Positions 49,427 to 64,000 of a DNA stretch of 64,000 nt are shown here, piece after piece (within the stretch, counting starts at the first letter, position 1; each line of letters starts with the position of its first letter). Both the position numbers and the translations under genes were made by a program. The notes under the pieces were generated by a model. That model did not search any database, was not told the DNA's origin, and saw nothing but the letters and a program-made list of their open reading frames with translations. Origin of the DNA: Heliocidaris erythrogramma. Taxonomy: Eukaryota; Echinodermata; Echinoidea; Camarodonta; Echinometridae. Where the stretch lies: NCBI GenBank assembly GCA_025617745.1, contig CM046869.1, positions 3,930,244 to 3,994,243 on the forward strand, written 5' to 3'.

Positions 49427-49517
49427 CATAATAGGTAGGTATATGATTTATTGCAGTAAATTTGTAAAATCAGCACTGATTTTCTTATTTACTATATAAA
49501 TCTATATACCTACCTAT
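49427..49517 (+). repeat. DIRS copy 4 internal complementary region
   Basis: Same composition as in copies 1 and 3, two bases shorter. Confidence 0.85.
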
Positions 49518-49713
49518 GACCCTCCCTCCTTCCCCTCACCTTGCAAGCAACATGTTTCTACTTGGGGTTGCTCGCAAAAGAGGAAGATGGCCGTGGCGTG
49601 TTGGCGCGCGTGAGTGGCGAAGGGGACAATAGGATTACGGGGGGTGCGAACAATATTGTGACTCATTTGTGTTAAATTCTCGAAGGGGTCCCGTAGTCAA
49701 GACTTCTGGCATA
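49518..49713 (+). repeat. DIRS copy 4 right terminal repeat core, standard orientation
   Basis: A 196-bp segment in the same orientation as in copy 1, starting gaccctccctcc. Confidence 0.85.
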
Positions 49714-49769
49714 ATAGGTAGGTATATAGATTTATATAGTAAATAAGAAAATCAGTGCTGATTTTACAA

Positions 49770-50463
49770 CTTTAGTTTAGTGCAGAAATTCAGCTGTGTA
49801 TTCGAGCGTTAGTTTAGTGCAGAAATTTAGCTGTGTATTCGAGCGTTAGTTTAGTGCTCGAATTCACTTGGTATTCGAGCTTTAGATTAGTGCAGAATGT
49901 AGTATAAGTTTGAATTAAAAAAAAACAACATATCACGAAATGAATTACTGATATGTTGCCAATCTACGTAAAAATATAGTTGATTTTGAGACTATTTACT
50001 TGCGTTAAATATAAATCTAAGGAATGCAAGTGAAACCATAAATTCTTTGTACGTGACATGTTTAATAAAAACAATTATATATACATTAAACAATGAAAAC
50101 TCGAAAATATATGAAACAGCTTGGCGGGTTTCATTTAAATTGACATCTCATTAATTGAATTCTTGATATGTTGCCAATCAATTTACATGTATCAATTCGT
50201 CTAAAATTATTTTAAAATCGTTTCCAGTGAAGGATATGGATGCGAAAACTCTGTTGCTATTTTTCTTCAAATTTAAACTACATTCTGCACTAAACTATAA
50301 AGCTCGAATACCAAGTTAATTTGAGCACTAAACTAACGCTCGAATACACAGCTGAATTTTTGCACTAAACTAACGCTCGAATAGACAGCTGAATTTCTGC
50401 ACTAAACTAAAGCTCGAATACCAAGTGAATATCTGCACAAAACTAATGCTCGAAATCAAAGTT
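49770..50463. mobile_element. Fold-back element with repeated 37-bp units in its arms
   Basis: The left arm (49770-49905) has units such as agtttagtgcagaaattcag with gtgtattcgagcgtt, at a 37-bp period. The right arm (50275-50463) holds the same units in reverse complement (gcactaaactaacgctcgaa), with about two more units than the left. The ~370-bp centre is AT-rich without an ORF. The missing left units suggest that DIRS copy 4 sits in or truncated this arm. Confidence 0.75.
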
Positions 50464-50506
50464 ATTTTTTGCACAACATGCGTGCTAGAATTCCTTTGCC
50501 ATTTTA

Positions 50507-50711
50507 TGATATCACAAAATGGAATTAGTGATATCACAAAATGGAATTCGTGATATCACAAATTCGAATTTGTGATATCACGAATTGAATTTGTGATATC
50601 ACGAATTCGATTTCTTGATATCAAAAATTGGGTTCATGTGCTAAACCAATGGGAATTTGTGATATCAGAAATTCAATTCGTGATATCACAAATTCGAATT
50701 TGTGATATCAA
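50507..50711. repeat. Palindromic 22-bp tandem array
   Basis: About eight to nine units of the type gatatcacaaattcgaatttgt. The unit is itself nearly palindromic (gatatc and ttcgaa are centres), so either strand can fold into hairpins. Part of the array (50610-50660) is degenerate. Confidence 0.8.
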
Positions 50712-51660
50712 AAAATCACTTTAAATAGTAATATGGCTTTCCATACGCGCGCGCACCCTATATTATAACTTATGGAGACACACTAGCATAACCCAAAATA
50801 CTGTGTTGAGTTAGAAATATCATAAAATTGGAAATTCCCGTAGACCTGTGACTTCCACCAATCGACTCTTTATATATTTTTTCTAAAAAAATACCTCAAT
50901 TTTAAAATAAAAAGACATCTATTAACGTCGGACTGGCTTTTCAAAGACACCTCTGTTAGTTATTTTTAGAACAGCTGCCCCATAGGAATGTACATGCTTT
51001 TCCTCAAGTTGACGTATTGCAGTTGTAACAGCGGCCTGTTCGTAAGGCTGTAACTCCGCAGCCAGACATCCCACGCAGCTGTGGCTTTCATCATATACCC
51101 GCAAGAAAGTTTTCTATCACATATCTCAAACTCACTGTGATTGGTCAACACGTCTTGTCGGAAAAGGGAAAAAACCAAGAAGGTTCGTTTCCGAATCCAA
51201 TCAAAATCAGTGACACAGAGAACCTCATTAGCATATTTGACTCATGACATCATCGTCTAGATAACGTGTGGTTGCTTTTGGCTCTTCGACGGCTGTGGTA
51301 CCGATCATGTGAGTGACGACATCCAATGAGATCGTGCACTAGCAGACGACCATGTAGCAGACGTACGTCCGTCCGAAAGCAAACACAACCTAGCCGGTTA
51401 GAAGAAAATCTAACTAAATTCCAGTTCACTACCCCGGGGGGGGGGGGGGGGGGGCACTCACATATATATGTCACACATGTATGTGCTGCTGTGACGTCCC
51501 CCATTTTCAGCCTTCTCGGGTCGCTCCGATGATATGCAATTTTCAGATTTTCACTAACCGCACCTCGATTGGCTTCCGACTCGCTCCCTAGAATAAATTA
51601 TGAGAAAACAATGCGCACAGTCCATTGTCGGGGAACAGTCGCTCCCTAGCCTCCCAGGCC
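50712..51660. other. No secure gene; two small minus-strand frames
   Basis: Overlapping minus-strand frames at 50922-51104 and 50966-51178 look protein-like in places (CLAAELQPYEQAAVTTAIRQ in one) but match no family I recognise and have no clear splice sites. A G run lies at 51436-51454. Confidence 0.35.
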
Positions 51661-51883: not shown

Positions 51884-51907
51884 TATTACGAAATTTTCTT
51901 TTGCTTA

Positions 51908-51940
51908 TTAGGGTTAGGGTTAGGGTTAGGGTTAGGGTTT
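51908..51940 (+). repeat. Interstitial telomere-like repeat (TTAGGG)5
   Basis: Five head-to-tail ttaggg units ending in ttt. Confidence 0.9.
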
Positions 51941-52138
51941 AGAAAATACAAGTCCGATACTTGTAGTCTGTTTCAAAGTCTTCAAAAAGGGGTTTCTGCC
52001 TAGGCTTGGTTACAAAAAAAAAGACGCGGGACAGCGCAGCGGTAGCCTTTTGACAAGGCCCTCGTGACTTGGCTATTTTTCTCGGCAAGTAAGCTAGTAG
52101 TGGCTGCATAACAAGACTAGCCGCCCAGCCCGGTGAAT

Positions 52139-55521: not shown

Positions 55522-56262
55522 TTACTGCGGCAGCCCGAACACGTAGTGTTCGGGCTGCGCTTCGCAGTCCTTTGATCGCATGGATGTCACATAATTACAA
55601 GGTCGTTTGTCAAAATGATAGCCATGAAACATGAAATCAGTTGATTTTAGGCTATTTTAGGTACTTACAATACTTTACGATTGACTGTCGTCTTTCTTTT
55701 CAATGAGGATGATACAAAAAGGCATATTTATCTCCAAGAGCCTGTAGTAAAAACTTCCGAAGGTCGGTGTTTTGCTTGCAATGCGCATGCGTCAGCAGCT
55801 CCAATTATAATACAGACAAGAAGGGAGGATTATGAATATTCATTAGACGAGCTTGAGCGAGAGCGCTAGATCTATACGCTAGCGATCGGCGGATTACAGT
55901 GGGTATATGAATATTCATTATTCCATTGACGAAAACTATGCCGTCATTGTAATAAACATTCATAGGCGCATGCGCAAGTGCCTATTTTCAATTTGGCTTT
56001 AACAACATGGCGAATGGGACTGGTTTCGAAAATTGAGAGTAAAAAGTGACATTCATCGATTCTACACATTTTTTAGGAAAAGCTGATTTGCGTAAAGTCT
56101 GTTTAGGTAAGTGGCATCGTATATATGATACTTCAATTAAAAAATAATAATTACATGGCCATTTTTTAAATGGTCATTTGAACATTGGTAGATTGTGAGA
56201 CCCACCGAATCGTACTGGTTTCACTCAGGACGCTGCCACTTCGTGGCAGCGTCCCGGGGCTA
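55522..56262 (+). mobile_element. 741-bp element copy a, 9-bp target duplication, hairpin ends
   Basis: Flanked by exact gcacgcgag (55513-55521 and 56263-56271). The left end carries a perfect hairpin (gcagcccgaacac / gtgttcgggctgc); the right end carries another (cgctgccac / gtggcagcg) just before the terminal ccggggcta. The two ends do not form ordinary long terminal inverted repeats with each other. There is no ORF above ~75 codons. A 9-bp duplication fits Mutator-like (TIR-less) or Merlin-like mobilisation. Confidence 0.85.
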
Positions 56263-56469
56263 GCACGCGAGATGAATGCGTCTTCGACTTCGTGCACTTT
56301 TCCAAACCGCTGGGCCCCCGGTGCATTCACAACTAGGCCTACTCCCGTTAGCTCCATGCCGTTGGCCTTTCTAATGCACTGCACTGCGGTTGCGCCTTAC
56401 AGCGAGGCATAACGGGGTTTCCTGCGTTACGCTCAAACTTGACGAAAGGAGAGGAAAAGGAGAGAAGAT

Positions 56470-56636
56470 GGCATTATCGTGAAATAGTCCCCGCTTCAAA
56501 AAAATCTAAGTTTTTTTAGGATTAGGATTAGGGTTAGGGTTAGGTTTTAGGGTTAGGGTTTAGGGTTAGGGTAGGGTTTAGGATTAGGGTTAGGGTTAGG
56601 GTTAGGGTATGGTGGGGACTATATCACGATTATGCC
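56470..56636. mobile_element. Short inverted-repeat element with telomere-like core
   Basis: Inverted 23-mers, ggcattatcgtgaaatagtc at the left and gactatatcacgattatgcc at the right (about two mismatches), enclose ~90 bp of ttaggg, tttaggg and ttaggatt variants (about 56515-56610). Confidence 0.7.
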
Positions 56637-56972
56637 GAGAAGATTAGGATTTTAGGTAAGCAGGGGGTTGTTTCATCAAATCAACTCCATGACAGTCATA
56701 ACTGTTGTCGGTAATCTACGGAAATGTCATGGATCTGAAAAACTGTTTCACGAAAACATGATCACTGATGATAAACGACAACTCAATGATATCGATACTC
56801 ATCGGCGAAAAAACATAGTCTATAATAATAATAGTCTATATCACACTCCATTGGAATTATCGTCAATTACCCAAACAGATTTTGAGGCTCAGTTTTACCC
56901 AAACTAGGCCTACTCCAAAATGTAAAAAATGGCAGCGAAGATGAATGCTTGTGATACAAACATCCCGTTTAC

Positions 56973-57714
56973 TTACTGCGGCAGCCCGAACACGTAGTGT
57001 TCGGGCTGCGCTTCGCAGTCCTTTGATCGCATGGATGTCACATAATTACAAGGTCGTTTGTCAAAATGATAGCCATGAAACATGAAATCAGTTGATTTTA
57101 GGCTATTTTAGGTACTTACAATACTTTACGATTGACTGTCGTCTTTCTTTTCAATGAGGATGATACAAAAAAGGCATATTTATCTCCAAGAGCCTGTAGT
57201 AAAAACTTCCGAAGGTCGGTGTTTTGCTTGCAATGCGCATGCGTCAGCAGCTCCAATTATAATACAGACAAGAAGGGAGGATTATGAATATTCATTAAGA
57301 CGAGCTTGAGCGAGAGCGCTAGATCTATACGCTAGCGATCGGCGGATTACAGTGGGTATATGAATATTCATTATCCATTGACGAAAACTATGCCGTCATT
57401 GTAATAAACATTCATAGGCGCATGCGCAAGTGCCTATTTTCAATTTGGCTTTAACAACATGGCGAATGGGACTGGTTTCGAAAATTGAGAGTAAAAAGTG
57501 ACATTCATCGATTCTACACATTTTTTAGGAAAAGCTGAATTGCGTAAAGTCTGTTTAGGTAAGTGGCATCGTATATATGATACTTTAATTAAAAAATAAT
57601 AATTACATGGCCATTTTTTAAATGGTCATTTGAACATTGGTAGATTGTGAGACCCACCGAATCGTACTGGTTTCACTCAGGACGCTGCCACTTCGTGGCA
57701 GCGTCCCGGGGCTA
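56973..57714 (+). mobile_element. 742-bp element copy b, 9-bp target duplication, hairpin ends
   Basis: Nearly identical to 55522-56262 (a few single-base indels) but flanked by a different exact 9-mer, cccgtttac (56964-56972 and 57715-57723). Two copies with independent target duplications show transposition, not segmental duplication. Confidence 0.9.
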
Positions 57715-58214: not shown

Positions 58215-58582
58215 TGTTTTGTGACTGTGGTAATTTTTGGCTTACCACGCTCACCAAATGTGGTATATTTTGGCGTACCACGGTCACACACTCACACAAC
58301 TCTCGTAAAATACTTACTCGCTGTAAACTTACTTGTATTGATACTTGTAAGAGTAACTCTGTCTCTGGCTTCGGAGTCGAGGTTTCAGGTTAAGACTGTA
58401 GGCAAAAGCTATCATCCATCGGCTCCAAAACATTGAGATCAGACTGGCGAGGTATTTCCTTTGCCAGCCCAGCATGACTCCCAGGCGACGTACGCGCCGC
58501 ACGTCACCATTAAACCCTCATTATAGGGGCGCGCGCTAACGCTTACGCGATTGTTTCCCGTGGTCTACATATTCAGACCACA
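58215..58582 (-). repeat. Candidate 3' LTR of the gypsy element
   Basis: Read on the minus strand it begins TGTGGTCTG right after a purine run and ends CACAAAACA, giving TG...CA ends over 368 bp. It contains a TATA-like cccctataatg about 50 bases in. The second LTR is outside the window, so identity cannot be checked here. Confidence 0.5.
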
Positions 58583-58592
58583 TTCCCCCCGA
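58583..58592 (-). promoter_or_regulatory. Candidate polypurine tract
   Basis: On the minus strand cggggggaa lies immediately before the TG of the candidate LTR, the expected position for the plus-strand DNA primer of an LTR element. Confidence 0.5.
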
Positions 58593-59309
58593 CTTTAGGA
58601 CTACGTTACCTCCTCTGAGTTAGGACCAGGATCCCTAAATTTATGGGTCCTTTAAAGTTCCTAGAAGAAAAGGGAACGACTTTGTTAATATACCACCGCT
58701 CCTTTGCTATTAGTAAGAATGTAAGACACCCCTTTAATAATGAGTTGTCCGGAGTCTCAAGGATTAGCATATTAACATGTCATAAGTCTAAAAATGTCCT
58801 ACATTTAATTAAAGATAACTAATCAGCTTCTCAAGTAAAAGGGCAAGGGGAATCTTATCAATGTGACTTTTAGAATAAATGTTTTAATCAAACCAAAACT
58901 GGTCACATGATAAGCTTGATGCTAATACTGAGACTACTGGGGATCCTGTACAATTTTGCACCCAAATATTGTTAATTTCAACTGTTTAATTTCCAGTGTT
59001 AAGTTTAACTCGAACAAGGAAATGTTAAAATTGTTATGAAATCTGTCCAAATCACAATACTGACTTTCACAAATACATTATAGAAATACATTCATGCAAA
59101 TAAACTCTGCATGTTTGCAGTAGGAAGTCCTATGTACTTCCAAAACACGATATACATAATATAGATATAGATTGCAGCTTTCGCAGTAAGAAGTCACACT
59201 TCTAAAAACAATGTACAAAATATAAACAATGTACAAAATATAAACAATGTACAAAATATAAACAATGTACAAAATATATACTTGTATACATGTATACAAG
59301 TAAAATTAT
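58593..59309 (-). other. Gypsy element 3' untranslated region
   Basis: No ORF. It includes an 18-bp tandem repeat (59207-59280). Confidence 0.5.
59207..59280. repeat. 18-bp tandem repeat
   Basis: About four units of tataaacaatgtacaaaa. It lies ~30 bp beyond the stop codon of the TatD-like ORF on the minus strand. Confidence 0.85.
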
Positions 59310-60955
59310 CTAATGTGTGGGTAGGCCATAGTACAACTTTAGACCATTATGACGTGTTGCGTTGATGACCTTTTCGACAGGTTCATCCCGGATACGAGCT
59401 ACAGCATGAGCGACCTCTCCTAGATGTTCAGGAGTATTCACTCGCACTTCCGGTCTAACGGAAAGATATGGAGAATCTGTCTCTAGAAGCATGTGCTCAA
59501 GAGGGCATGAACGCAACGCGCAGATCTGGTCCGGGTCAAAAGTTTTCACCAAACCTGAAAAGCTGACATGGCAATTCGGGAAATGTGACAACCACTCTTG
59601 CATGGTGTCTGTGTTCCCTGAGAAACTGTGCAGGTGGATGCGCTGATACATAGAACAATGCAATTTGACTTGCTTCAACACCATACGATGGACTTCGCGC
59701 GTAAGTCCGGGGTCGGAATGAGGTCCCCTGATATGCATAATCAGAACATATCCCAGAGTGCCTACACTTAAAATGCGATCCAGCAAACGCCACTGTGCAT
59801 TCCAGGTCTCCGGGTCGTGAGTGTAGTCTAAGCCAACCTCACTGATCCCCGAGATCTTGCGGGACGACAGAGCTCGCTCTAAAAATGACCAATCAGAAGC
59901 GCTGTAAGTACATGCGCGCTTGGGATGAATCCCAATAGCCAAATGCCATGGATGTTGCAGCATAAACGGCATTGTAGAGTAGGTCTCTGGGTCGCAAAAA
60001 TTCAAGACACCCCCCTTCCACTGTAACCGGAAAATTAGACGGAACGGTTGGAATACGGTGCAAATGTGAATCCATACGATCTTTATGGAAATGCGCGTCA
60101 AATACACGTATGGGTGTAACATAAGTTGCAGATGGAGCAATTGGCGCTGTTACTGGTCCGGACTGTGAAGTAGCACTTGGATCCTGAATCCCCCTACATG
60201 TACGGGGCTCTGATCCACTAGGGACAGACATCGCCGGAATGGGCTGGGATGATGCAGCAGTTGGAACCGGGATCCCCGTAAGGGGCTCTGATCCAACTGA
60301 GACTGGTGAAAATCGCGTCCTGAAAAGCGTCTGCTTCGCACTTGGCAATTGACCCACCAAAAACAACAACGGACGCCAATGAATAAGTACAGCAGGTGAG
60401 TTCGGTGGATTCAGTTGGAACTTCTTTGGCAGAGGCCATCCATTTTTTTGAGAAAATGTCTTCATCTCTGCCATCATTTCCACTGAAATGAGAGTGGAAA
60501 CTGGCAACCAAACTATTCACTTGCAACTCTTTCGCTAAAAATAGCAAAGCTTCTTCTCGTACTGGGCGCGCCTCAAACCACTTTGTGGAAGAGTCTATTA
60601 AGTGAAAGCACATAGGTAAATGGTATCGGAAAGCATGTGTTCTAAGCTTGTCCCTTCGCATGGTCATAACACACCCATTGAAAGGACAAGGGTAGTTATG
60701 TTTCCGAATTTGCTTTGTTCTGGGTTTCCCCGGAGAAACCGCAGTTCCAGCAATTGGAGCAAATGAAACCGATTTGCTGGTATGCGTGACACCTAAGTGT
60801 GTTCTTGTTACCGATTCAGAGTTTATCGGAAGGACACTTGGAAGTGTTCCTGGAACAATAGACGTGCTCGCGCTGGGAGTCACGACTGGGTGAGGCTCCA
60901 AAGCCACCCCTGCATCCGTCTCCATAATTATCTCGGGAATCTTTGTGGAATCCAT
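59310..60955 (-). pseudogene. Zinc finger-TatD nuclease-like ORF in gypsy element (two frame breaks)
   Basis: Three consecutive frames give about 548 residues. Frame 1 (60955 to about 60450): a linker and a C2H2-like finger, CPFNGC then RTHAFRYH (C-x4-C-x11-H-x4-H). Frame 2 (to about 60012): GWPLPKKFQL, a Pro/Ser-rich linker, then VFDAHFHKDRM, the H-x-H start of TatD. Frame 3 (to 59310): WHLAIGIHPK, ISEVGLDY, VLIMHIRG, HLHSFSGN, LLETDSPYL and NTPEHLGEVAHAVARI. All TatD metal ligands (HxH, E, H, H, D) are there. TatD proteins are metal-dependent DNases. Breaks fall at a 7-base A/T run (60443-60449) and a 6-base G/C run (60010-60015), each a +1 change, so decay or homopolymer error are both possible. 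A splice-acceptor-like tttcttatttcag ends one base before ATG 60955. Confidence 0.75.
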
Positions 60956-60956
60956 C

Positions 60957-61046
60957 CTGAAATAAGAAAGAAAGTGTTACTCTCATACCTGGAGAGTTGC
61001 TTATGCAGCTTAACAGTTAACATATTAACAAAAGACACATTTATAC
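60957..61046 (-). promoter_or_regulatory. Possible 90-nt intron joining pol to the TatD-like ORF
   Basis: The donor candidate is catag/gtataa inside the last codons of pol. The acceptor is a pyrimidine tract ending ttatttcag/g just before ATG 60955. Removing the 90 nt deletes the pol stop and joins the two ORFs in frame. The donor is weaker than the acceptor; a longer-range donor could use the same acceptor, as for spliced env RNAs. Confidence 0.4.
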
Positions 61047-64000
61047 CTATGTGCATTACCCATGTCTTCTGGGTCAACTGACACAAAACGTACATGGTAA
61101 CCATCCAAACCATAGTCCTCCTTAAGCTTACAAACAGGACATTTATATTTAGCCATGGCCTCTCCTTCTCTTTGAGTGATCCTGATACATCGCCCATGAT
61201 ACCAGTCCAAACAATAGTCACATTGGATCATGAAACTGCCATCATCTAGTTGACGACAGAGACAGTATCTCTCGTGCCGATTTCCCTTGTGGGATAATGA
61301 TGGAACTGGACTATTGTCTTTGCAGGCTTTCAGTGGGTCATGATTTACTACATATGTGGTACGATGGTGAGCCACTTGATATAAATAGGGAGTAAACTTA
61401 TGAATGATTATTGCTGGTCCTTTCCAAGGAGCCTTCAATTTTCTACCTTTGCCTGTTTGTGCGGCTGCATTCAGAATGTACATGTACATGTACACCCTAT
61501 CTCCTATTTCAAAAGAGTTCTGCCTGACTTTAAGGTCATAATCTCTTTTTCGCAAGTTCACAACCGACTGAAGCCTGTCCCGTGCCACTTCATGAGCTCT
61601 CTCTAAGGATTCCCTCAAGGAAGCACAATATTGATTAGGAAGCATTGGCTTAACTGCTTGAGGTAAAGGAAAGACTAGATCTACCGGTTGGTTTACCTCC
61701 CTACCCAACATCATCATGTTAGGAGTAAAACCTGTACTCCTGTTTACAGTGGACCTAACCGCTCCTGCTAACTGTGGTACGTAGAAATCCCACTCTGCTG
61801 GTGTTGAATTTATAAAACATCTGATAGCATCCATCAGAGTCCTATTGTATCTTTCTACTTGACCGTTAGCAGAAGGTCTATAGGGCGTTGTCCTTGCCTT
61901 ATGTATGTGTAAAACTTTACACATTGAAACAAAAAGATTACTTTCAAAGTTACGACCTTGGTCTGTAAATATTTGTAAAGGGCAACCAAAACGAGAAAAG
62001 AATTCATTAACTGCTGCTCTTGCAGTAATTTCTGCAGTTTGTAAAGGAAGAGGGATACATTCTACCCATTTGGTAAATTGATCTACAATAACCAAAATGT
62101 ATGAATTACCCTGTTTTGTCTTAGGTAGAGGTCCTAGAAAATCTAAATGTACCTTTTCCATTGGCACCCCTGCGTGATAGATTACCATAGGGTAACGCCC
62201 CTTCCGTCCTGGCTTTTTATTGAGGTTACATATTGCACACCTAGCAACATAAGCTCGGACATCTAAGGTCATACCATACCAATAATACTTCACTTTAAGT
62301 TTGGCCAATGTCCGGTCCACCCCAGCATGACCAGCTAAAGGTACATCATGATTTAGATGAAAAATGGATTCTTGCAAATCCTGGGGCACCACTATTCTAT
62401 CAGTTGGTTCTCCCTTCTTCCACAAAATTCCATCCTTCAAATAAAAGTTATCCCTACCTATCCATAGGGCCTTTTCACTTGGACCCCATAACATAATTGT
62501 CCCTTCATCGGGTATGGTTTGGTCCATTAACCATTGCCTTAAATGAAGTAAACGAGGATCACTGGTCTGTGCCTCCAAGAACTTAGAATACAAGTCAATA
62601 TCAGAAGAATTTACAGAGATTTGATTAACTTGATTTTCCCTCTCTACAAAAAATTGTGGGTCACTTTCCCTTTCAACCAGAATCTGTGGTTCATTTTCTC
62701 CTAACAAAACATCCATGTGAGTGACACACATGTCAGAGGATTTGTCCTCACTAACAGGGTTTTGTTTGCTTAAAGGAACTATATTATCAATCATATGTGC
62801 AAAAACAGACCAATTCTTGTTGGCACGTTCACAGTAATTGCAGCCTCCACATGGAAGGTCTGATGGAACAACACCCAACATATAATTTTCACAAAAAGCA
62901 TCTTTATGATCCGGTCTACGAGAAAGTGCATCTGCATTGACATGTTTCCTACCTGGTCTATGTTCAATGATTAAGTCATATTGACTAAGCACTTCGAGCC
63001 AGCGCGCTAATTGACCATGTGGTTCCCGGAAATTCAGCAACCACCTTAAACTATCATGGTCAGTTCTAACCTTGAAAGGTTTCCCCAAAAGAAAATGACG
63101 ATATTGCTGTACGAATTTTACTACAGCTAATAATTCTTTGCGTGTTACGCAATACCTTCGTTGCTCAGGAGATAAACTTAGGCTACCATAAGCAACAACA
63201 CGTTCGAAACCACCTTGGACCTGAACAAGTTCAGCTCCAATAGCGGAATGAGAGGCATCTGTATCTAGAATAAAAGAATCATAAGTATTTGGTAAAGCTA
63301 AAACGGGAGCTGTAGTCAAAGCTTGCTTGATTCGTTCAAACGCTAACTCATGCTGCTGCTCCCAAACAAAAGAACGCTTTTTGCTTGTAAGTGTGTATAA
63401 TGGATCAGCTAATTCAGCGCAATTCTTCAAGAAGAGCCTATGATAATTAACTAACCCAAGGAACTGTTGTACCTCCTGGGTACTAGTGGGTGTTGGCCAA
63501 TCTAATATTGCACTAATATGTTGTGGTTTTAAGTGTAAGCCTTCGGAGTCAACTTCGCGACCTAGAAATTCAACGCGTTGTTGAAATAAACTACATTTCT
63601 TTGCCTTGAGTTTGAGGCCATACTTCTGAAACCGACTCAAGACTAACTTAAGATTATCTAAATGATTCTCAAAAGAACGGCCCAATACAATTACATCATC
63701 TAAAAAAGCTAAAGATATGTCCCAATTTAAACCGCTCAATATCAAATTCATAACCCTAGAGAAAGTAGCAGGGGCATTACAAAGTCCAAAACCCATTCTA
63801 ACGAATTGAAATAAACCATACTTTGTGATAAAAGCAGTTTTTTCCCTGTCTTTTGCACTAACATGGACTTGCCAATAGGCGGCATTGGCGTCAAGTTTAG
63901 AAAACCACTGATTACCTCCTAAGGTATCTAGACATTCCTCTATGCTGGGTAGAGGATAGACATCCTTCTTGGTTACATCATTAAGTTTTCTATAATCTAT
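61025..64000 (-). CDS. pol: Gypsy pol: RT (partial)-RNase H-integrase-PHD finger
   Basis: Open from the window edge (first residues IDYRKLNDVT) for about 991 codons. RT: FGLCNAPATFSRVM and the FLDD catalytic box (about residue 100). RNase H: FILDTDASHSAIGAE (about 245), YCVTRKELLAVVKF and RTDHDSLRWLL. Integrase: zinc-binding H-H-C-C region (LAGHAGVDRTL, ARCAICNLNKK), then catalytic D, D, E in HLDFLGPL, IFTDQGRNF and ANGQVERYN, and a C-terminal SH3-like part (RVYMYM, PWKGPAII). The end is a PHD finger: YCLCRQLDDGSF, CDYCLDWYHGRC, KYKCPVC (C4HC3). No frameshift is seen, so this copy may be recent. Ty3/gypsy is inferred from the RT-RNase H-integrase order. Confidence 0.9.
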   Translation of the reverse strand: MDYRKLNDVTKKDVYPLPSIEECLDTLGGNQWFSKLDANAAYWQVHVSAKDREKTAFITKYGLFQFVRMGFGLCNAPATFSRVMNLILSGLNWDISLAFLDDVIVLGRSFENHLDNLKLVLSRFQKYGLKLKAKKCSLFQQRVEFLGREVDSEGLHLKPQHISAILDWPTPTSTQEVQQFLGLVNYHRLFLKNCAELADPLYTLTSKKRSFVWEQQHELAFERIKQALTTAPVLALPNTYDSFILDTDASHSAIGAELVQVQGGFERVVAYGSLSLSPEQRRYCVTRKELLAVVKFVQQYRHFLLGKPFKVRTDHDSLRWLLNFREPHGQLARWLEVLSQYDLIIEHRPGRKHVNADALSRRPDHKDAFCENYMLGVVPSDLPCGGCNYCERANKNWSVFAHMIDNIVPLSKQNPVSEDKSSDMCVTHMDVLLGENEPQILVERESDPQFFVERENQVNQISVNSSDIDLYSKFLEAQTSDPRLLHLRQWLMDQTIPDEGTIMLWGPSEKALWIGRDNFYLKDGILWKKGEPTDRIVVPQDLQESIFHLNHDVPLAGHAGVDRTLAKLKVKYYWYGMTLDVRAYVARCAICNLNKKPGRKGRYPMVIYHAGVPMEKVHLDFLGPLPKTKQGNSYILVIVDQFTKWVECIPLPLQTAEITARAAVNEFFSRFGCPLQIFTDQGRNFESNLFVSMCKVLHIHKARTTPYRPSANGQVERYNRTLMDAIRCFINSTPAEWDFYVPQLAGAVRSTVNRSTGFTPNMMMLGREVNQPVDLVFPLPQAVKPMLPNQYCASLRESLERAHEVARDRLQSVVNLRKRDYDLKVRQNSFEIGDRVYMYMYILNAAAQTGKGRKLKAPWKGPAIIIHKFTPYLYQVAHHRTTYVVNHDPLKACKDNSPVPSLSHKGNRHERYCLCRQLDDGSFMIQCDYCLDWYHGRCIRITQREGEAMAKYKCPVCKLKEDYGLDGYHVRFVSVDPEDMGNAHRYKCVFC

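Follow-up and report, generated by a model that had tools for sequence, protein, structure and literature searches.

Results

Architecture of the window element

The DNA examined here (the window) is a stretch of 64,000 nucleotides (C17:3930244-3994243) of the 1.06-Gb genome of the sea urchin Heliocidaris erythrogramma. It holds the 3' part of a Ty3/gypsy retrotransposon of about 10.4 kb, which lies on the minus strand and carries, downstream of pol, a third open reading frame (ORF3) encoding a C2H2-like zinc finger and a TatD nuclease domain. Searches were run on the whole genome, stretches of which are labelled L### and protein rows P####; all TatD and integrase counts below are lower bounds, in which match pieces rather than genes were counted.

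A first-pass annotation, made from the letters of the window, had described an intact pol, an ORF with a finger and all TatD motifs, a polypurine-like tract and a candidate long terminal repeat (LTR) of the TG...CA type. The order along the minus strand is pol, a splice-acceptor-like tract, ORF3, a G-rich tract and the LTR. The 3' part of pol (61025..64000), open at the window end, contains Pfam matches to reverse transcriptase (RT; 63557-63997), RNase H (62978-63364), integrase H2C2 (62213-62389), the integrase core (rve; 61874-62164) and, at the C-terminal end, a PHD finger (61130-61264). Traced past the window end, pol forms a single frame of 1415 amino acids (aa) with no stop, and is indeed intact. 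A protease-like motif, DTAAEVTIVSD, was recognized by eye ahead of RT in L009, giving the pol order protease-RT-RNase H-integrase. The candidate LTR (58226..58582, minus strand, TGTGGT...ACCACA) proved to be a true one: its partner lies beyond the window, at L009 4715-5069, and is identical at 343 of 355 bases, so that an LTR pair encloses the element. The flanks read at the LTR borders, GTGAC and GTGAT, differ at one position and may be a 5-bp target-site duplication. The polypurine-like tract also stood, as a G-rich purine stretch (58583..58591, minus strand, by eye) abutting the 3' LTR upstream.

The gag gene of the window copy is fragmented, with a longest frame piece of 123 aa. Three gag stretches of the lineage were examined with Pfam (L009 2878-3246, L035 3325-3900 and L029 1-1812). 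Gag of the L029 element matched zf-CCHC above the Pfam cut-off and PNMA marginally above it, and the start of gag bears a helix-hairpin-helix motif, above the cut-off in L035 and below it in L009.

The finger-TatD gene and its frame break

Pfam TatD_DNase (PF01026) matched the window at 59331-59945 (2.4e-33), covering profile positions 56-252 of 253. We found that ORF3 of the window copy is split over three frames of the minus strand. The first frame piece (60218..60955, ATG at 60955) carries the finger (60620-60688), the ligands of which are conserved among the aligned homologues; the second (59893..60507) carries the N-terminal TatD motif DAHFH (HxH); and the remainder, the main TatD part (59310..60140), carries the motifs EVGLD, HIRG, RIHLH and LETDSP. 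The finger and the TatD motifs are thus present downstream of pol as annotated, but not in one ORF. In the sister copy L052, whose integrase-PHD piece is 99% identical to that of the window copy, ORF3 is uninterrupted: a single frame of 566 aa, or 559 when counted from the ATG shared with the window copy, spans both the finger and the TatD motifs. The frame break is therefore specific to the window copy, and the family to which this broken copy belongs includes open-frame ones. An intron in place of a frame break was rejected, as the sister copy reads through the same stretch in one frame.

Predicted domains and fold of the ORF3 protein

A structure model of ORF3 of L011 (808 aa) had a mean predicted local distance difference test score (pLDDT) of 73 and a predicted template modelling score (pTM) of 0.48. 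As modelled, the ORF3 protein is composed of an N-terminal helical domain (about residues 8-100), a C2H2 finger accompanied by a helical domain (about 265-413) and, after a linker, a TatD barrel (about 530-805); the domains are joined by low-confidence linkers, and pLDDT exceeds 90 across most of the barrel. In a Foldseek search of PDB with the model, the TatD enzymes of S. aureus and E. coli were the best matches (E 5.7e-13 to about 1e-12), followed by human TATDN3 and TATDN1, and the barrel is a predicted TatD fold. A profile of the ORF3 family scored E. coli YcfH at 131 bits, TATDN3 at 55 bits and TATDN1 at 53 and 51 bits. With Pfam, seven ORF3 proteins gave TatD_DNase only and no envelope match; signal peptides and membrane segments were not looked for.

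Recurrence of the arrangement in the genome

The genome-wide Pfam search, with 150 of 207 candidates scored, gave at least 149 TatD matches (match pieces; the genes are fewer). Four places tied at the top score and ten at the next one, a pattern of sequence scores that points to recent copying. At 17 of 20 inspected TatD places, gypsy RT, RNase H, integrase or PHD domains lie upstream on the same strand, and at L022 an integrase fragment alone was found upstream of TatD. Several of the 20 places belong to one family (L010/L016; L011/L012/L013/L026/L027; L015/L018; L021/L024). Viewed from the integrase, a listed TatD lies within 8 kb downstream on the same strand at 49 of 93 integrase-PHD places, in a search in which 92 of 3059 candidates were scored and counts are again lower bounds.

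LTR pairs were found in six of seven further elements with fetched 5' flank (L011, L015, L017, L018, L028 and L029); in L021 no pair was present in the 4 kb of 5' flank fetched. When all 20 loci were scanned as they stood, most of them too short for both LTRs, L020 showed a pair inside its own stretch (92.7%). The LTR stretches of L017 are identical at 368 of 368 bases, and its ORF3 frame is 797 aa long. Among eight elements examined for flanking duplications, exact 4-bp ones occur in L015 and L017 and one-mismatch ones in the window element (5 bp) and L018 (4 bp), while none was clear in L011, L020, L028 and L029 at the borders used. A host gene standing beside pol by chance was rejected, since LTRs enclose ORF3 and the arrangement recurs.

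Rearranged forms were also seen. L012, L013 and L026 have no integrase, and in them RT-RNase H and the finger-TatD ORF3 are fused in one frame of 1472-1491 aa. L024 (4666-7753) holds three tandem TatD parts of ORF3 at a spacing of 976 bases, the first and third being 99.9% identical over 972 bases. L045 (560-5644) holds a tandem pair of ORF3 copies, the upstream one of which ends in a PHD-finger stretch.

RT-TatD congruence, selection and phylogeny

Identity matrices of RT and TatD were strongly correlated (Mantel r 0.91 for 12 elements; 0.87 after removal of two near-duplicates), as were those of integrase and TatD (0.86, 11 elements); in each test, none of 20,000 permutations was as high. 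Between families, identity is 33-47% for TatD and 66-82% for RT (outside the L021/L023/L028/L029 group and near-duplicates). As judged from these sequence comparisons, the RT-TatD congruence fits one old acquisition followed by joint descent.

Across copies, the ratio of nonsynonymous to synonymous change (dN/dS) of TatD was 0.05-0.25, indicating purifying selection, in the 12 of 18 pairs that yielded a ratio, several of them with dS above 1; of the other six pairs, two had no synonymous change and four were saturated. The L011/L027 pair, with a dS of 0.45, gave a TatD dN/dS of 0.10. For RT, three of nine pairs yielded a positive ratio, which lay near 0.06. Finger-TatD proteins, bivalve ones included, were aligned in 47 rows, of which 46-47 have the zinc ligands and 45-46 the metal ligands. 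This alignment was hand-picked, with 46 of 78 proteins plus L011, and mainly short, duplicate and cellular-type proteins were excluded.

A quick tree of the TatD domain was built from 86 rows, after eight of 21 own TatDs and ten of 78 proteins had been dropped by hand. The 72 element and finger-TatD rows form one clade, with a support of 100 in the Shimodaira-Hasegawa-like approximate likelihood-ratio test (SH-aLRT). The other 14 rows, bacterial and unnamed short TatDs, fall outside it, and one outgroup row, P0076, was placed among element rows. An inner group of 19 rows (SH-aLRT 94) comprises 13 own-genome, four named echinoid and two unnamed rows; the named bivalve and gastropod rows fall outside this group. 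A separate clade of element-borne TatDs, a prospect raised by the first-pass annotation, is in part borne out: the element and finger-TatD rows do group together, among rows that exclude host TATDN genes. Taken together, the LTR pairs, the recurrence in several families, the RT-TatD congruence and the purifying selection uphold its central proposal of a captured finger-TatD gene between gypsy pol and the 3' LTR.

A candidate splice acceptor ahead of ORF3

In the window element, a splice-acceptor-like tract (60957..60980, minus strand), with 16 of 18 pyrimidines followed by CAG, ends one base before the ORF3 ATG, and none of 236 background windows was as good. The rule applied required at least 14 pyrimidines in the 18 positions before AG, and each element was compared with 236 of its own upstream windows. 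The 11 elements tested are those of 18 listed in which the ORF3 start could be placed, and the rule was satisfied in eight of them. At most one of the 236 upstream windows scored as well in the window element, L010 and L019, and 12 did so in L023, L028 and L029. The Fisher value of 1.3e-5 is too small, as related elements were treated as independent. L045, outside the 11, has an acceptor-like tract by eye. In elements that bear env, env is translated from a spliced mRNA, and the candidate acceptor suggests, from its sequence, that ORF3 may likewise be expressed from a spliced mRNA.

Loss of ORF3 and spread of deleted forms

Copies without the ORF, which the first-pass annotation had held to speak against capture, do exist: 44 of the 93 integrase-PHD places have no listed TatD in range. 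Three of them were compared with their TatD-bearing relatives. L042 matches the L018 family on either side of ORF3 (96% and 86%), with ORF3 gone. L043 matches the L028 family in the same manner (99% and 98%), again with ORF3 gone, and farther downstream carries a stretch of 104 bases that matches L028 in its ORF3 region. L044 matches the L045 family; most of ORF3 is deleted and a C-terminal remnant stays. The remnants of ORF3 identify L043 and L044 as products of loss and not of a late gain; for L042, loss is supported by the RT-TatD congruence.

Searches with the L042, L043 and L044 junctions found 12, 10 and 31 full-length or nearly full-length deleted copies, respectively. Parent forms, with both halves at the parent spacing, were found at three and two places for the first two junctions; for the third, the TatD-side half was found at five places and both halves at one of these. 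By coordinates, 38 of the 44 TatD-less pol copies carry one of the three deletion junctions (one of them a partial junction), and 24 of these 38 retain pol frames of at least 1340 aa. The ORF-less copies are thus, for the most part, traced to deletions, and families ancestrally free of TatD were rejected on the same count. Six of the 44 are unexplained, two of which are pieces of one window-family copy whose TatD piece lies about 9 kb away.

Other features near the element

About 1.5 kb past the element, on the same strand, lies a second gypsy-type integrase ORF of different sequence (L009 6529-7950). A near-perfect direct repeat of about 0.7 kb with a spacing of 1452 bases (window 55522-57673) comes to within about 0.55 kb of the 3' LTR. 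At 51893-51942 and 56513-56624 there are short interstitial arrays of telomere-like TTAGGG units, and at 49431-50722 dense nested inverted repeats with arms of up to 126 bases.

Discussion

Leaving the exact substrate aside, we consider it probable that these elements form a Ty3/gypsy lineage in which an accessory finger-TatD nuclease, acting in trans and made from a spliced mRNA, stands at the place of env. A common ancestor would have acquired ORF3 in a single old event. The protein would be translated from an mRNA spliced at the acceptor ahead of ORF3, as an active nuclease steered to nucleic acid by its finger. It would act in trans, such that copies lacking ORF3 may rely on protein made by other copies or get by with none; selection on the lineage would keep ORF3, and single copies could drop it. 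Such an enzyme could trim the hybrids, flaps and ends that arise during reverse transcription and integration. A possible function, which we put forward tentatively, is that the diffusible nuclease trims or clears an intermediate of the element's own cycle, such as an RNA:DNA hybrid, a cDNA end or a flap.

Several observations weigh against this reading. The first-pass annotation had raised the case of the ORF at host loci without pol; pol domains stand upstream at the 17 places described above, but L014 and L019 (two of 20) showed no pol within the fetched stretch. From its substitution pattern TatD is constrained, yet less so than RT, and P0002 (Lytechinus) is without two metal ligands. The tree was built without host TATDN genes. 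As to splicing, equally good tracts occur in 40 (L017) and 37 (L021) of the 236 windows and so are not rare there; by the same rule the tract was not seen in L011 and L018 and was weak in L027; and in L017 and L023 it is positioned after the first in-frame ATG. Finally, within the detection of the searches, deleted forms outnumber parent forms in all three families. Since deleted copies are more numerous than their parents, an element does not need an ORF3 in cis, which makes a core role in replication doubtful. ORF3 thus resembles env: it is old and under selection, yet can be dispensed with in cis.

An alternative role for the nuclease is counter-defence, in which it attacks host silencing material, such as piRNA precursors, R-loops at silenced loci or sensed cDNA, and ORF3-less copies profit. 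This fits the data almost as well as processing of an intermediate, though taken by itself we hold it to be somewhat unlikely. Loss of ORF3 followed by amplification is what a shared, trans-acting benefit would allow, and the faster divergence of TatD as compared with RT could be a consequence of interaction with host factors. TATDN2 of humans is reported to be an R-loop-resolving RNase (PMC12709183). On the other hand, dN/dS is low and, averaged over the whole domain rather than tested site by site, shows nothing that points to positive selection, and no host target is known.

Less likely still, ORF3 could act like env during passage between cells or hosts and be needed for this transfer alone, so that elements turning purely intracellular would drop it and multiply. 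Such multiplication has been reported for env-less endogenous retroviruses, and the position of ORF3, its acceptor-like tract and its loss with amplification reproduce the env pattern. The protein itself does not: the seven ORF3 proteins gave TatD_DNase alone with Pfam, and the modelled fold is of an intracellular nuclease type. In addition, the 19-row group of own-genome and echinoid sequences contains no named mollusc row, which argues against frequent transfer between phyla.

It is also conceivable, but in our judgement quite improbable, that the finger directs TatD against rival elements, whose DNA or cDNA it would target in a way akin to bacterial defence nucleases. One genome does hold many related families, and the profile of QatD, the TatD nuclease of the Qat anti-phage system, gave a weak match; at 43 bits it lies far below the model cut-off of 230. 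Chance captures of host genes by elements do occur, and ORF3 is dispensable in cis, but a functionless host-gene transduction or nested-insertion artefact can hardly be credited given the several families, the RT congruence, the purifying selection and the conserved ligands.

The accessory trans-acting nuclease that we favour could be part of a wider history, which we regard as rather doubtful. A bilaterian-wide gypsy lineage may have taken up TatD in deep time as a spliced, diffusible public good replacing env, for example to dissolve RNA:DNA hybrids or germline silencing RNA. Copies that delete it would be cheaters outnumbering the carriers, and capture or domestication may link animal genes annotated as TATDN2, one of them a germline R-loop nuclease, to the same history.

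Whatever its substrate, an enzyme domain occupies the env place and is kept by selection in several families; bivalves, too, have related finger-TatD proteins. Nuclease-bearing and nuclease-free forms, with three separate losses followed by amplification, make this genome a natural experiment. The data also suggest that TatD or TATDN2 annotations in invertebrates may in some cases refer to genes of elements.

Relatives of ORF3 and comparison with known systems

The named finger-TatD proteins closest to an ORF3 of this genome are those of Lytechinus, Diadema and Strongylocentrotus. The 14 bivalve-named rows have the TatD domain and are 37-58% identical to P0009, and the finger pattern is present in seven of the 14; one of these proteins, P0026 (Pecten), is annotated TATDN2, a name given by annotation alone. 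In the giant squid genome paper, a figure legend places TATDN2 among the non-Hox genes in the Hox cluster, beside a pogo transposable-element gene (PMC6962438), and this label would fit an element insertion. Two TatD proteins of the ORF3 family, P0030 and P0063, are filed under Thiodiazotropha metagenome bins, and are perhaps host clam DNA in these bins.

Farther afield, one scan of viral contigs gave ten stretches with the pattern and no relative among them. Five loci in bacterial and archaeal genomes hold ordinary TatD only (23-25% identity), and phage records gave 19 matches with at most 31% identity in the ten rows listed. An alignment-based protein search returned two matches, both already known, and was probably spent on low-complexity words; BFVD gave a single match below 0.001, an uncharacterized Yasminevirus protein. 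In the titles, abstract starts and some passages of the open PMC literature, subscription papers and Repbase being outside this scope, no TatD-bearing gypsy element was found.

A third gene in a gypsy element is as a rule interpreted as env. With Ty3/gypsy elements that have a third ORF, errantiviruses included, the present lineage shares the LTRs, a zinc-knuckle gag, the protease-RT-RNase H-integrase order, a third gene after pol with an acceptor-like tract before it, and the loss of this gene in some copies. It differs from them in that its third gene encodes a C2H2 finger-TatD protein with no envelope match (Pfam, seven proteins), and in the helix-hairpin-helix near the start of gag and the PHD finger that ends the integrase.

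A partial parallel is Cer1 of C. elegans, an LTR retrotransposon with an extra nuclear protein, CERV, made from spliced RNA with acceptor sequences before the ATG (PMC10309623). According to the passages of this paper that deal with it, CERV helps to export genomic RNA and has some sequence in common with GAG, and no nuclease domain is described there (PMC10309623). The two systems have in common an extra protein and an acceptor or acceptor-like sequence before its ATG, and differ in the export role of CERV as against the nuclease domain of ORF3.

The bivalve TatD genes share the TatD domain with ORF3 and differ in being annotated as host genes. With the TatD nucleases (E. coli YcfH/TatD and human TATDN1 and TATDN3), ORF3 shares the TatD barrel, as modelled, and the HxH, E, H, H and D ligands; it differs in being borne by an element and in carrying, besides the barrel, a C2H2 finger and a predicted helical domain at the N-terminus.

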